Shown in pieces: positions 8,372 through 12,855 of a stretch of DNA of 64,000 nucleotides. Source of the stretch: Candidatus Binatia bacterium (lineage in GTDB: Bacteria; Desulfobacterota; Binatia; UBA12015); NCBI GenBank assembly GCA_029248525.1, contig JAQWJE010000008.1, positions 310,001-374,000 of the forward strand. Reading direction: 5' to 3'. Within the stretch, counting starts at the first letter, position 1; each line of letters starts with the position of its first letter. Made by a program: the position numbers and the translations under genes. The notes beneath the pieces were generated by a model. That model saw only the letters and a list, made by a program, of their open reading frames with translations, was not told the DNA's origin and made no database searches.

Positions 8372-9385
8372 ATGGCACAACTCAAAGGTCCTCTGGTTTC
8401 GCTGATCTCTGCAATCGAGGGGGCAGATCCCCTCGTGATCCTCCCGCATGACAATCCGGATCCGGATGCCCTCGCGAGCGCATCAGCATTGCAATATATT
8501 CTCTCCCAACTCGGAATTTGCGATTCGATCATTGCACTGGGCGGCATTATCGGTCGAGCCGAGAATCGAGCGATGGTGAAATACCTGAACATCTCGCTCA
8601 CACCCGTGCGAGAGATTGATTTTTATCGACGGCCGAGGATTGTCCTGGTCGATACCCAGCCGGGGCGGGCAAACAACTCTCTTCCCGACGATGTTCTGGC
8701 AGCGGCGATTATCGACCATCACCCGGCCTACGCCGAGAATCCGGACGTCGGCTATGTCGACCTTCGCGACAACTACGGGGCGACCTCGACGATCCTCACC
8801 GAGTATCTTCGTGATTCGGATGTCACGGTCGAGAGCAAGATCGCAACGGCTCTCTTCTACGGGATCAATGCCGAGACTCAGGATCTTGGGCGGGAATCGA
8901 CCGAAGCTGACTTTGCTGCGAGTCACTTCCTCTACCCCTACGCGAACAAGCGACGCCTGGGAAAAATTGAAAACGCCCGAGTTCCACGAGAGTATTTTCG
9001 CGCTTTTCGCGATGCCATCGCGAAAGCGCAGATCTATGGAAATCTTGTGGTCTCGGACGTGGGGGATGTGCGTTACCCGGATATGGTCGCCGAGATGGCG
9101 GACTTTCTCCTTCGCCTCGATGAGGTGGAGTGGGCGGTCGCGATGGGTTCGTTCGGCTCGAATCTCTATGTGTCGCTGCGAACCACGGACCGAGAGGCAA
9201 ATGCGGGCGAAGTTTTGCAAAAGGTCCTCGGTAGTCGATCTGCGGGTGGCCATGATATGATTGCGGGCGGGCGCGTTTCGATCGACGGGGTGGGCCTTGA
9301 GCGTGAGAAGGTAGCGTTGAGAGTCAAGGAGCGTTTGCTCAAACGAATCGGGGTCGAAACAACCGAAGGCCTGGGCCTGGTTTAG
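8372..9385 (+). CDS. DHH-family phosphoesterase (NrnA-like)
   Basis: This is a soluble metal-dependent phosphoesterase of the DHH/DHHA1 superfamily, whose NrnA branch degrades nanoRNA and pAp and whose relatives cleave cyclic dinucleotides. Motif I is HDNPDPDA at residues 26-33 and the DHH motif is IDHHPAY, with DHH at 115-117. The C-terminal DHHA1 part includes RSAGGHDMIAGGRV, matching the conserved GGH loop. I choose the ATG at 8372 rather than a TTG 21 nt upstream, because GGGAG lies 6 nt before it. Length is 337 aa. The natural substrate cannot be fixed from sequence. Confidence 0.88.
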   Translation: MAQLKGPLVSLISAIEGADPLVILPHDNPDPDALASASALQYILSQLGICDSIIALGGIIGRAENRAMVKYLNISLTPVREIDFYRRPRIVLVDTQPGRANNSLPDDVLAAAIIDHHPAYAENPDVGYVDLRDNYGATSTILTEYLRDSDVTVESKIATALFYGINAETQDLGRESTEADFAASHFLYPYANKRRLGKIENARVPREYFRAFRDAIAKAQIYGNLVVSDVGDVRYPDMVAEMADFLLRLDEVEWAVAMGSFGSNLYVSLRTTDREANAGEVLQKVLGSRSAGGHDMIAGGRVSIDGVGLEREKVALRVKERLLKRIGVETTEGLGLV

Positions 9386-10494
9386 GACGCTTCTTCCTGC
9401 AGGCACGCTTCGGCTTCCTCGACGACCAGCGGAACTTCATCGCGCAGCATTTTTTCCAGAAGGGATCGGCGCCGAATCGGCTCCCCCTGGATTTGCCCGA
9501 CTGCCCATGTCGCATGGGTTCGGACCAAGTCGGAGGGATCTTGCAGGGCGCGGCCGAGGGAATGCAGAATTTCGGGATTCGCCGTATTCCCCGCAACGAT
9601 GGCGGCGTTGCGCTTGAGTCGCTCGGGTCCCGTGCGTTCGAGTGGAGTCCCGGCAAACCTCCGCGTAAAATCTTCCTCGTCCATCGCGAGAATCGCATCG
9701 AGTCGTGGATGTAGCTCCGGGTTGAAATCTCCCTCGTCATTCCAGGGGCATGCGATCTGGCATAGGTCGCATCCGAATAGCCACTCCCCCATTTTTGGGC
9801 GCAGGTGTCTTTCGACTACGCCTTTATGCTCGATGGTCAGGTAGGAGATGCAAAGGCGTGGGTCGAGGTCGTATGGCCCTCGAATAGCGTCCGTCGGGCA
9901 ACTGTCGATACATCGTCGGCAAGTCCCACAGTGGTTGGGCGAGGCCTTGTCAGGTTCGAGTTCGACCTCGAGCAGAATCTCGCCGAGAAATCCCCAGGAG
10001 CCGGATTCTCGATCGAGCGTAAGGGTATGCTTGCCCGTCCAACCAACCCCGGCCCGTTCGGCCCACTCGTGCTCGAAGATCGGGCCTGTGTCGACGTAGG
10101 TGCGACTCTGGCTGTCCGGTAGAAGAACGGCGATTTCCGCAGCCCACCTCTTCAGCAGCGCATCCATTTCGAGGTGGTAGTCCCGACCAACCGCGTATGC
10201 GGCGATGCGTCCACGCATTTCCTTTCGCCAGGGGGCGGGGGCGGAACGCGCGGGTGGAGCATAGGGGTAGGAGGCCGAAAGAACGCTTCGCGCCCAGGGG
10301 AAGCGAGAGTGGGGATCGAGCCGAGCTTTCTTGTGGTGCTCGAGAAATCGCATATCTCCCGCCCGTCCATCCGCGAGCCAGTCATTGAAATACGCATCAC
10401 GGTCGAGGGGAGCGAGGCGGGCCACGCCCGGATTTCGAAACCCGAGAGCCTCGCCGCAGCTGAGAATTCTCTTTTTGAGTTCGGCCCCGCGCAC
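9382..10494 (-). CDS. queG: Epoxyqueuosine reductase QueG
   Basis: QueG reduces epoxyqueuosine to queuosine in the wobble position of GUN tRNAs, using cobalamin and two [4Fe-4S] clusters. With the start I chose, the first cluster motif is CGTCRRCIDSCP (about 189-200) and the second is CDLCQIACPWN (about 242-252). The catalytic Asp lies in RTYVDTGP near residue 135, and AYAVGRDYH is the family's conserved entry motif. The last 90 residues look like HEAT-type repeats, as in many QueG proteins. No ATG start exists: a GTG at 10494 gives 370 aa beginning MRGAELKKR, and a TTG at 10557 would add 21 residues. The end overlaps the DHH gene end by 4 bp. Confidence 0.93.
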   Translation of the reverse strand: MRGAELKKRILSCGEALGFRNPGVARLAPLDRDAYFNDWLADGRAGDMRFLEHHKKARLDPHSRFPWARSVLSASYPYAPPARSAPAPWRKEMRGRIAAYAVGRDYHLEMDALLKRWAAEIAVLLPDSQSRTYVDTGPIFEHEWAERAGVGWTGKHTLTLDRESGSWGFLGEILLEVELEPDKASPNHCGTCRRCIDSCPTDAIRGPYDLDPRLCISYLTIEHKGVVERHLRPKMGEWLFGCDLCQIACPWNDEGDFNPELHPRLDAILAMDEEDFTRRFAGTPLERTGPERLKRNAAIVAGNTANPEILHSLGRALQDPSDLVRTHATWAVGQIQGEPIRRRSLLEKMLRDEVPLVVEEAEACLQEEAS

Positions 10495-10716
10495 GGGTCG
10501 AGAAGTAGCAGAAACCGCACGGAATCTCGCAGGGCGGAAAACGTTCCGGATCGTCAATTTAATGACGATAGGTATTTTCGCGTCGCCGGGGCGTCACTTC
10601 TATCCCGCCATTAATTTGGCAGAATCCGAGGATGCCCGAGAAGTGCCTTGGTCAAGTCTCCGAAATTACAGCACTTTAATCTCGGCGAGCAAAAAACGTC
10701 CGGCATGAGGTTTAAC

Positions 10717-10731
10717 GGCACGGAGGTTGCA
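10717..10731 (+). promoter_or_regulatory. Sigma-54 (RpoN) promoter of the FliA-like gene
   Basis: The sequence CGGCACGGAGGTTGCAA at 10716-10732 matches the -24/-12 consensus TGGCACG-N4-TTGCA except for its first base. The invariant GG is at 10717-10718 and the invariant GC at 10729-10730 with exactly 10 nt between them. The predicted transcription start is near 10742, which leaves a leader of about 50 nt before the sigma factor gene at 10791. A TGACG/CGTCA inverted repeat (10563-10567 and 10592-10596), about 150 bp upstream, is at a suitable distance for an enhancer-binding activator, but its role is only a guess. Confidence 0.75.
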
Positions 10732-10790
10732 AAACCTTAGCGCAGACAATCAACGCCGCCCCGGGGGGGGACAGGCTGGAAGGGTTCGCT

Positions 10791-11627
10791 ATGGAAATCG
10801 CAACGAGAGAGCAGCAATCAAAAGACACAAAGGGGACCTTGGGGGTGCGACGCGCGAGGCGGTCCGTGGGGGCGGATCGCTATCGCGCCGGCCGGGGCAG
10901 CCGTCACCATCTCTCCGAAGGCGAGATGGTGCAAAACAATCTCCCGCTCGTACGGCAGATTGTGAAGCAAGTCGCAGGCATGCTGCCTTCGTCGGTCGAG
11001 CATGACGAAGTGATGAGCTGGGCGACGCAGGGCCTCCTCGATGCGATTCGAAAATTTGATCCGGAAGCGGGAACTGCTTTCTCGACCTACGCTCGAATTC
11101 GCGTCCGGGGTGCCATCCTCGACGAGTTGCGGTGCCTGGATTGGGCTTCGCGGACTGCCCGGCAGAAGGCGAATCATCTGCGACGAACCGTTCAGACCTT
11201 GCAGCATAAGTTGGGTCGAGATGCGGGACAGGAGGAAGTCGCGGAAGCGCTCGGGGTCTCGATCGAAAAATATCATCAGATGCGTGGCGAGGCCTCCGAG
11301 TTGAAGCTTCTTTCACTCGAAGATGTTTCGCCCGGGCGAAACGATGACAACTTGAGCTTCGAAGAGTTCCTGCCCGCACAGCACGGCGACCCAATGGCGA
11401 TGCTTCTCGCACGAGAGAAAAGAGATGCGTTGCAAGCCGCGATCGAGCAACTGCCCGGCAAGGAGCGTCTGGTCCTGCCCTTGTATTATCGGTCCGAGCT
11501 CACCATGAAGGAAGTTGGTGATCGGCTTGGGATTACCGAGTCTCGGGTATCCCAGCTGCACACGAAAGCACTTTCTCGATTGCGGGGCGTTCTCTCCCCT
11601 CAGCCGACGTCCCCGGCTTTCAGCTGA
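10791..11627 (+). CDS. fliA: RNA polymerase sigma factor of the FliA/WhiG (sigma-28) family
   Basis: This alternative sigma factor of 278 aa has region 2 at about residues 45-120, with NNLPLVRQIVKQVAG and the hallmark FDPEAGTAFSTYARIRVRGA. Region 3 follows (WASRTARQKANHLRRTVQTL), and region 4 near the C-terminus has the helix-turn-helix LTMKEVGDRLGITESRVSQL. The spacing and the RGAILDELR sequence are typical of FliA, which directs late flagellar genes, but sporulation- or motility-type relatives such as WhiG look alike. No flagellar gene is in the window. The first 45 residues, very basic, are an unusual extension. GGAAGG lies 8 nt before the ATG. The sigma-54 promoter upstream fits a flagellar hierarchy. 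The 3' end overlaps the mobA end by 28 bp. Confidence 0.88.
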   Translation: MEIATREQQSKDTKGTLGVRRARRSVGADRYRAGRGSRHHLSEGEMVQNNLPLVRQIVKQVAGMLPSSVEHDEVMSWATQGLLDAIRKFDPEAGTAFSTYARIRVRGAILDELRCLDWASRTARQKANHLRRTVQTLQHKLGRDAGQEEVAEALGVSIEKYHQMRGEASELKLLSLEDVSPGRNDDNLSFEEFLPAQHGDPMAMLLAREKRDALQAAIEQLPGKERLVLPLYYRSELTMKEVGDRLGITESRVSQLHTKALSRLRGVLSPQPTSPAFS

Positions 11628-12265
11628 AGTTCCAAAGCCTGGGCCCTCGCGAAGTCAGCTGCATCATTGATATTGAGAAAGCTGTTCAGCGCAGGGTCCC
11701 AGCGCCGAAGGTCCTCGGCCGCGATTTCCTGAAACGCCGCGCGGCGCAGGCTGCGACGGGGACTGGACTCCCCGTCGTCAAGGGCTTGGCGGAAACAGGA
11801 CAGCATCGGCGCTGTTCGATAGGCGGCCGTCAGCGGTTGTGCGCAGCTATCGACCCGAGGCACCATGGCATCCGTTTGGGGTTCGGCTCCCAGGGCGTCA
11901 ATCAGGCCGCCGATCAGCACGGGGGCCAGAAATGGTGAGTCGCCTGCAGCCACAAAGGCGATGGCATTGCCGGCTTCGGCGAGACCGGTCACAATCCCCG
12001 GTAGAGGACCACGGTGGGCCTGCGCGTCGTGAAGAACCCTCAGCGAGGGAGTGCGCGGTAGTTCGGCGAGTGCTTCTTCGACTCCATCGGGAGTACCTGC
12101 CGGAGCCGCGATCACCAAAACTTCGCGGCAAGATGCGAGCAAGGCCTGCGTTGTGTGGACGAGCACGCTTCGGTCTCCGAGTTTCAGGGACATCTTGGGT
12201 TGTCCCATGCGTGAGGACCGGCCCCCGGCCAGAATGATACCGGTGCAGTTTCGCCGCATCGTCAT
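11600..12265 (-). CDS. mobA: Molybdenum cofactor guanylyltransferase MobA
   Basis: MobA transfers GMP to molybdopterin to make the bis-MGD cofactor used by DMSO-reductase-family enzymes, such as the molybdopterin oxidoreductase at 41.6-43.9 kb. The nucleotide-binding motif LAGGRSSRMGQPK is at residues 12-24, followed by FVAAGDSPFLAP, the metal-binding GD-S/C-P block, and SFLNINDAADF near the end. The start at 12265 shares one base with the stop of the upstream cyclo-ligase gene (TAATG), which favours it over ATG 12259 and over the longer frame. Length is 221 aa. Confidence 0.88.
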   Translation of the reverse strand: MTMRRNCTGIILAGGRSSRMGQPKMSLKLGDRSVLVHTTQALLASCREVLVIAAPAGTPDGVEEALAELPRTPSLRVLHDAQAHRGPLPGIVTGLAEAGNAIAFVAAGDSPFLAPVLIGGLIDALGAEPQTDAMVPRVDSCAQPLTAAYRTAPMLSCFRQALDDGESSPRRSLRRAAFQEIAAEDLRRWDPALNSFLNINDAADFARAQALELQLKAGDVG

Positions 12266-12855
12266 TATCGGACGCCCACAACGCTGAGCAGTCTTTTCTC
12301 TGTCAGGCACCAATCGACCGCTTGGTCGTGTGGTTCGAGCGGAAGATGATTCGTCAGGGCTTCCTCATGGCAGAGGCCGAAGATCAGCCAACCCGCTGCC
12401 CGAAGATCGCTCAGAGCGCGATCATAGAATCCGCCACCGCGACCGAGGCGGCCCCCTGCGGGGGTGAGTGCGACGCAAGGCACGAGAACAATCGCCGGTG
12501 TGCTGATCTCGGGGATCGGAACAGCGGAGCCGGTGGGCTCGGAGATTCCTGCAGGCCCGCTGGGCTCCAAGGCGCCCTCCGGAGCAAATTCCAGAGAGCT
12601 ATCTGGTCCTGTGCGGGGCAGCAGAATCTGGATGCCTGCGTCCCGGAAGAGCTCGAGGGCCGGCGCCGGGTCGAGCTCTCCGTCCTGTGCCACATATGCT
12701 GCGATTGTTCTGAAATCTCTTATCTCAATGTTTTTATTGAGAATTTCAGCGACGTTTCTTCCGGCTGCCCTCTGCGCGGGCCCGGTGAGGGTGCGCCTTC
12801 GTTCGCGGAGAGTGCGCCGTTTAAGGGCTTTTTGAGAAGCTGCCGAAGACTCCAT
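12265..12855 (-). CDS. 5-formyltetrahydrofolate cyclo-ligase
   Basis: The enzyme converts 5-formyl-THF to 5,10-methenyl-THF with ATP, recovering a storage folate. The diagnostic ATP/folate motif GGRLGRGGGFYDRAL is near residue 135, preceded by VLVPCVALTPAG, and an N-terminal KRRTLRERRRTL segment corresponds to the family's conserved basic helix. Length of 196 aa is standard. It is coupled to mobA by a TAATG junction and is divergent from metK, which also serves one-carbon metabolism. In many proteobacteria the 6S RNA gene lies next to this gene, but I could not see a 6S RNA-like fold here. Confidence 0.92.
   Translation of the reverse strand: MESSAASQKALKRRTLRERRRTLTGPAQRAAGRNVAEILNKNIEIRDFRTIAAYVAQDGELDPAPALELFRDAGIQILLPRTGPDSSLEFAPEGALEPSGPAGISEPTGSAVPIPEISTPAIVLVPCVALTPAGGRLGRGGGFYDRALSDLRAAGWLIFGLCHEEALTNHLPLEPHDQAVDWCLTEKRLLSVVGVR

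Follow-up and report, generated by a model that had tools for sequence, protein, structure and literature searches.

A conserved sigma-54-like element before a FliA-type sigma factor gene in Binatia genomes with and without flagellar markers

The sigma factor gene and the element before it

Between a queG-like and a mobA-like gene, the window (the whole 64-kb stretch of DNA that was analysed) encodes a sigma factor of the FliA/WhiG family, which we call type A and which is faced by a predicted sigma-54 promoter. The genome to which the window belongs measures 4.27 Mb in 59 contigs and is 99% complete; all family genomes compared here are MAGs. The features of the locus are the following, in window positions.

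9382–10557, minus strand: queG-like epoxyqueuosine reductase gene (PF08331/PF13484), divergent from the sigma gene, a conserved neighbour found in most family loci
10716–10732, plus strand: predicted sigma-54 (−24/−12) promoter, CGGCACGGAGGTTGCAA, best-scoring site of the window, kept in 11 relatives as the sole conserved upstream block
10742–10790, plus strand: predicted 5' leader, its start placed about 12 nt past the −12 GC, with a Shine-Dalgarno sequence GGAAGGG read directly at 10778–10784
10791–11627, plus strand: type-A FliA/WhiG-family sigma factor gene, 278 aa (TIGR02479; Pfam regions 2, 3 and 4)
10791–10922, plus strand: basic N-terminal extension, probably disordered, some 44 aa ahead of region 2; 7 orthologues share its length and charge but not its sequence
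10926–11144, plus strand: sigma region 2 (PF04542), with the region 2.4 motif DWASRTARQK
11166–11375, plus strand: sigma region 3 (PF04539)
11439–11585, plus strand: sigma region 4 (PF04545), TMKEVGDRLGITESRVSQLH
11600–12313, minus strand: MobA-like NTP transferase gene (PF12804), convergent, overlapping the end of the sigma gene, a frequent neighbour

The type-A protein scores 236.6 bits against TIGR02479 (cut-off 189.6), in agreement with a preliminary description of the locus, which had called the gene FliA-type, and its region 2.4 and 4.2 motifs (DW-x-x-R-x-x-R and TESRVSQLH) are as in flagellar relatives. Among solved structures, those of WhiG (6pfv) and FliA are its nearest relatives; an assignment as WhiG proper was rejected, the score of 211 bits against the WhiG equivalog NF004935 being far below the cut-off of 343. 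The basic extension, given in that description as 45 residues, measures approximately 45–50 aa with 11 Lys/Arg and 6 Asp/Glu. An identical type-A protein is encoded by the Deltaproteobacteria MAG UBA12015, and no FlgM-like gene lies beside the type-A gene.

In its 16-nt form the element reads CGGCACGGAGGTTGCA (10716–10731), with GG at 10717–10718 and GC at 10729–10730, and its spacing of exactly N10 is the one previously described. The same description had the site departing from the −24/−12 consensus at one base, which is correct for the core TGGCACG-N4-TTGCW, where a C replaces the T ahead of GG; against the longer YTGGCACG-N4-TTGCW there are 2 mismatches in 17 positions. A C ahead of GG is common in this genome, as it also occurs in the sites before glnB-amtB and at position 183406 of contig C43. 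The ATG at 10791 stands 61 nt downstream of the −12 C, and transcription from the predicted start near 10742 would give a leader of about 49 nt, in line with the 50 nt proposed earlier.

Among some 128,000 positions on both strands of the window this element has the top score, 14.4 bits with the runner-up at 12.3, on a hand-built frequency matrix; the argument from conservation given below is independent of that matrix. No sigma-70-like promoter match was found in the region upstream of the gene. With as many as 3 mismatches allowed, the loose sigma-54 pattern shows no enrichment in the 64-kb window (53 matches versus 48 expected), so that the site taken alone could be due to chance. In this genome the sigma-54 pattern has 7 matches versus 2 for the reversed control. 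The site at C43:183406 is identical to that of the window in 16 of 16 bases, spacer included, and the gene behind it encodes a secreted-looking protein of 966 aa, and another site of this type lies before glnB-amtB, which is a classical target of sigma-54. The genome has one copy of rpoN and encodes 13 strong sigma-54 activator domains; five further weak matches to PF00158 are probably other AAA+ proteins.

Conservation in the family and three FliA paralogues

Eleven relatives of the same family (G001–G009, G011 and G012) carry a type-A orthologue; a search of G010 (81% complete) did not find one. All 12 type-A upstream regions, that of the window included, hold a sigma-54-like site of 12.0–15.6 bits placed 24–67 nt before a start codon, a level of 12 bits that 4 of 1,200 shuffled upstreams reached, and in every genome the element is oriented toward the sigma gene. 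When these upstream regions are aligned, GGCAYG-N4-(K)TTGCW is the only conserved block, as the flanking DNA is unalignable, and no conserved activator-binding sequence was seen in the alignment of the 12 genomes. The decisive point is that the element is conserved in 12 of 12 orthologous upstreams, which makes it more than a chance occurrence, and judging from sequence the type-A gene is very probably sigma-54-dependent. Gene order is likewise shared, most type-A loci having the arrangement DHH phosphoesterase, queG, sigma, mobA and metK, with some contigs too short to show it whole, and the place beside queG is common to flagellated and non-flagellated genomes of the family.

The preliminary description had remarked on the lack of flagellar genes nearby and had suggested a genome scan for them. 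In genome-wide searches we found neither FlhA/FHIPEP nor flagellin in this genome, the two marker families by which the absence of flagella is judged here, and so for these markers the remark extends to the whole genome. Its central proposal, a sigma-54 promoter before a lone FliA-type gene, is supported by the family-wide element and gene order, by the presence of rpoN and activators and by the absence of FlhA and flagellin.

FlhA is absent from 6 of 13 family genomes, namely this one and 5 of 12 relatives, and is present in the other 7 relatives. Such patchy flagellar loss agrees with published work, in which most Binatota orders are reported to have flagellar genes (PMC8262859). Flagellated relatives possess, in addition to type A, a separate FliA (type B) which adjoins FlhA/FlhG. 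In a tree of the FliA paralogues, made by a quick search with SH-aLRT support, type A is supported at 99, type B at 96, type B joined by another family's flagellar FliA at 98, and type C, a further paralogue described below, at 100. Because type A forms a separate clade and flagellated relatives carry both A and B, we consider type A to be an extra paralogue, whether a flagellum is present or not. An assignment as flagellar FliA proper was rejected, given the separate clade and a genome with neither FlhA nor flagellin, and a non-flagellar role of type A appears very likely.

Two observations concern flagellar genes elsewhere in the family. In G005 (C85:40000–54000) a flagellar-type FliA gene is accompanied by a FliL-like ORF, recognised by eye, and FlhA is found nowhere in that genome, an apparent case of flagellar decay. 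In G004 and G011 there are divergent flagellin pairs, in which one gene has a sigma-54-like site and its partner a TCAAG-type sigma-28-like promoter.

A second sigma factor, its FlgM-like partner and candidate targets

This genome encodes a second FliA-type sigma factor, type C (G000:C49:432979–433665; L055:7962–8666), so that the arrangement described earlier for a single gene is not the only one. Type-C genes have their own conserved sigma-54-like element, resembling TGGAACGGWTCTSGCT, which lies 38–110 nt before a start in 11 of 11 genes (this genome and 10 relatives). Its −12 half is weaker and its scores are each reached by 2–4% of shuffled upstreams, for which reason the case for this element rests on its conservation in all 11. 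Directly downstream of 10 of the 11 type-C genes is a FlgM-like ORF, which in this genome scores 28.6 bits against PF04316 (cut-off 25); most relatives are also above the cut-off and G004 is just under it. Genes for molybdenum cofactor synthesis were noticed near both sigma genes, mobA beside type A and two moeA-like genes (L055:9920–13320) downstream of type C, which may be a coincidence.

Between the type-C and flgM-like genes stands a lineage-specific sigma-28-like promoter, CTAAAS-N17-CGAY in 7 genomes and degenerate in 3. Its spacing is that of the flagellin promoters of flagellated Binatia (TCAA-N18-CGA) and exceeds the E. coli consensus by one base. No convincing sigma-28-like promoter was found upstream of the type-A or the type-C gene, where two isolated matches before type C are unconserved. 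We think it likely that type C is the sigma factor that reads the CTAAAS promoters.

A scan for FliA-type promoters, also suggested in the preliminary description, had a divided outcome. The canonical sigma-28 sequence TAAA-N14-16-CCGATA is not enriched in this genome, with 7 matches versus 15 for the reversed pattern. Two of these matches precede polysaccharide genes; an exopolysaccharide output was considered and dropped because the match examined, before an epimerase gene, is not conserved in relatives. The CTAAAS-N17-CGAY pattern has 68 matches in 8 family genomes, which is fewer than its reversed control, and most lie inside genes. Seven of them precede a flgM-like gene (in this genome at G000:C49:433806). 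In this genome (at G000:C49:185308) and in G005, G008 and G011, four in all, the pattern stands 21–79 nt before the ATG of one uncharacterised family of secreted proteins, the chance expectation for gene families with the promoter in 4 of 8 genomes being about 1e-10 under a simple model. Sigma-28-like promoters of the TAAA/CGAT type were found only around paralogue C and this candidate target. The members of the secreted-protein family behind CTAAAS-N17-CGAY are:

L243:594–1121, minus strand
L253:1275–1811
L276:1275–1817
L214:729–1262, minus strand

These proteins of about 180 aa share a signal-peptide-like start and the motif QP-x-x-GNCC-x-C and are 38–50% identical to the copy of this genome. 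Searches with the secreted protein gave no Pfam match and no plasmid match. A structural model shows an all-beta C-terminal domain (mean pLDDT 74.5) and had no confident match in the PDB, the best E value being 0.011. An envelope or secreted output of type A itself is a tentative suggestion by analogy with type C, to which we give slightly less than even odds.

Proposed circuit and alternative readings

We propose, with a probability of about 0.78, that a working sigma-54 promoter drives a non-flagellar type-A sigma factor which serves its own gene set, and that type C forms a sister circuit with a FlgM-like brake. An NtrC-type activator responding to a signal would open the sigma-54 promoters of types A and C, as the sequences suggest. 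RNA polymerase with sigma-54 would then transcribe the type-A gene, and type A would steer the polymerase to its own gene set. Type C would be restrained by the FlgM-like protein, and the reading of the flgM-like gene from a C-type promoter would constitute negative feedback, both by analogy with FlgM. As the flagellar export gate is missing from roughly half of the family, this brake would have to be released by another route, for example by proteolysis, as proposed for Legionella oakridgensis (PMC5655016). From CTAAAS-N17-CGAY promoters, type C (by sequence), or else type A, would transcribe at least the anti-sigma gene and the secreted protein, and type A, whose regions 2.4 and 4.2 show the same DNA-recognition signature, may share or overlap the promoters of type C. 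The cascade from sigma-54 to a FliA-type sigma factor that had been put forward in the preliminary description is a supported reading which needs two refinements, as the sigma factor is a separate paralogue and not the flagellar FliA, and type C too stands behind a conserved sigma-54-like element.

Several other readings have to be weighed against this circuit. The loose pattern is no commoner in the window than expected, as would suit a chance look-alike in GC-rich DNA, but conservation in all 12 orthologous upstreams refutes that reading and leaves it a negligible probability. It is very unlikely that the element is kept for some other reason, such as being the operator of a regulator, and that the sigma gene is read from a sigma-70 or ECF promoter that went unrecognised. 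In favour of this reading, sigma-70 promoters are not known to have been described for this phylum; against it, the element has the exact GG-N10-GC layout and faces the sigma gene at 24–67 nt from the start in every genome, the same sequence type precedes glnB-amtB here, and no sigma-70-like match was found.

Type A might also be a relict of a lost flagellar regulon, kept for a few class-III-like genes and involving no special circuit. The family does contain both flagellated and non-flagellated genomes, G005 looks intermediate (its FliA is flagellar-type and it has a FliL-like ORF, but no FlhA), and Legionella oakridgensis kept FliA/FlgM after flagellar loss (PMC5655016). However, flagellated relatives have type A besides a true flagellar FliA next to FlhA, the two fall in separate supported clades, the position beside queG is common to flagellated and non-flagellated genomes, and a promoter element so strictly kept is not expected of a relict. 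This explanation is therefore unlikely and, for type A, largely refuted. A last alternative touches the output alone and would fit with sigma-54 control: type A could serve another kind of motility or attachment by governing type IV pili or chemosensory genes. In Rubrobacter radiotolerans the type IV pili are controlled by WhiG (PMC8325347), its nearest solved relative (6pfv), and in G004 a sensor-like gene (globin-PAS) has a CTAAAS-N17-CGAC match before it. Given that no pilus gene is among the promoter matches and that the repeated paralogue-linked targets are the secreted protein and the anti-sigma factor, we regard such an output as possible but doubtful.

The proposed circuit, in which sigma-54 drives a non-flagellar FliA-type sigma factor, resembles several known systems in part. 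In Borrelia burgdorferi the Rrp2-RpoN-RpoS pathway is a cascade from sigma-54 to sigma-S (PMC3037356, PMC2940757), and sigma-54 with an NtrC-type activator directly switches one other sigma gene that controls surface and other proteins outside a flagellar hierarchy, as would be the case here; the second sigma factor there is RpoS, whereas here it is FliA-type and two paralogous sigma genes have such elements. The type-C pair resembles the FliA and FlgM that are kept and active in the non-flagellated L. oakridgensis, where FlgM is relieved without export (PMC5655016), although that is a former flagellar pair after flagellar loss, and A and C are separate paralogues which stand beside a flagellar FliA in flagellated relatives. 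For L. pneumophila, expression of fliA is described as dependent on FleQ and independent of RpoN (PMC5655016). WhiG/RsiG of Streptomyces and Rubrobacter exemplify a sigma factor of the FliA clade in other use (sporulation, type IV pili), but the control described there is by a c-di-GMP-armed anti-sigma factor and not, as far as described, by sigma-54 (PMC8325347). The order of sigma-54 before FliA is that of the Pseudomonas-type polar flagellar hierarchy (classes II and III under sigma-54, class IV under FliA, with FlgM as brake; PMC8036289), except that here there is no flagellum and no export gate, and the type-A gene is solitary with no brake gene adjoining.

Outside the family, two loci in Legionella-labelled and gammaproteobacterial MAGs (L105:5959–6666 and L110:5959–6666) have a lone fliA-like gene behind a sigma-54-like site, CGGAATGAGTCTTGCA, with a short NtrC-type AAA+ ORF nearby and ccm-like genes adjoining. 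No flagellar genes were recognised by eye in 12 kb at these loci, which are possibly an independent parallel case.

Each component is known separately, namely cascades from sigma-54 to another sigma factor (Borrelia, PMC3037356), FliA in the absence of flagella (L. oakridgensis, PMC5655016) and FliA-clade sigma factors for other functions (WhiG, PMC8325347). Literature searches for a sigma-54-driven, non-flagellar FliA returned no direct precedent, which is not proof of absence, and what is new relative to the literature searched is the combination, in duplicate, conserved through a family that keeps a true flagellar FliA where it is flagellated. Because the genome apparently lacks flagella and the arrangement is conserved in the family, a control circuit usually met with in flagellar systems seems to have been redeployed. 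Whether, family-wide, sigma-54 fires a pair of FliA-type sigma factors that act in parallel and independently of flagella, of which just one has a FlgM-type brake, leading to secreted or surface proteins, as a re-purposed flagellar circuit beside the real one in flagellated members, is in our estimate evenly balanced.

Annotation routinely labels FliA-type sigma factors as flagellar, and here they stand family-wide behind sigma-54 elements, in some genomes without flagella and in others beside a true FliA. For an uncultured phylum this offers a concrete, testable circuit, comprising two promoter types, a sigma/anti-sigma pair and a first candidate target gene. The family would also lend itself naturally to studying the release of a FlgM-type brake in cells that lack a flagellar export gate, and the means by which three FliA paralogues sharing a cell keep to separate promoters.
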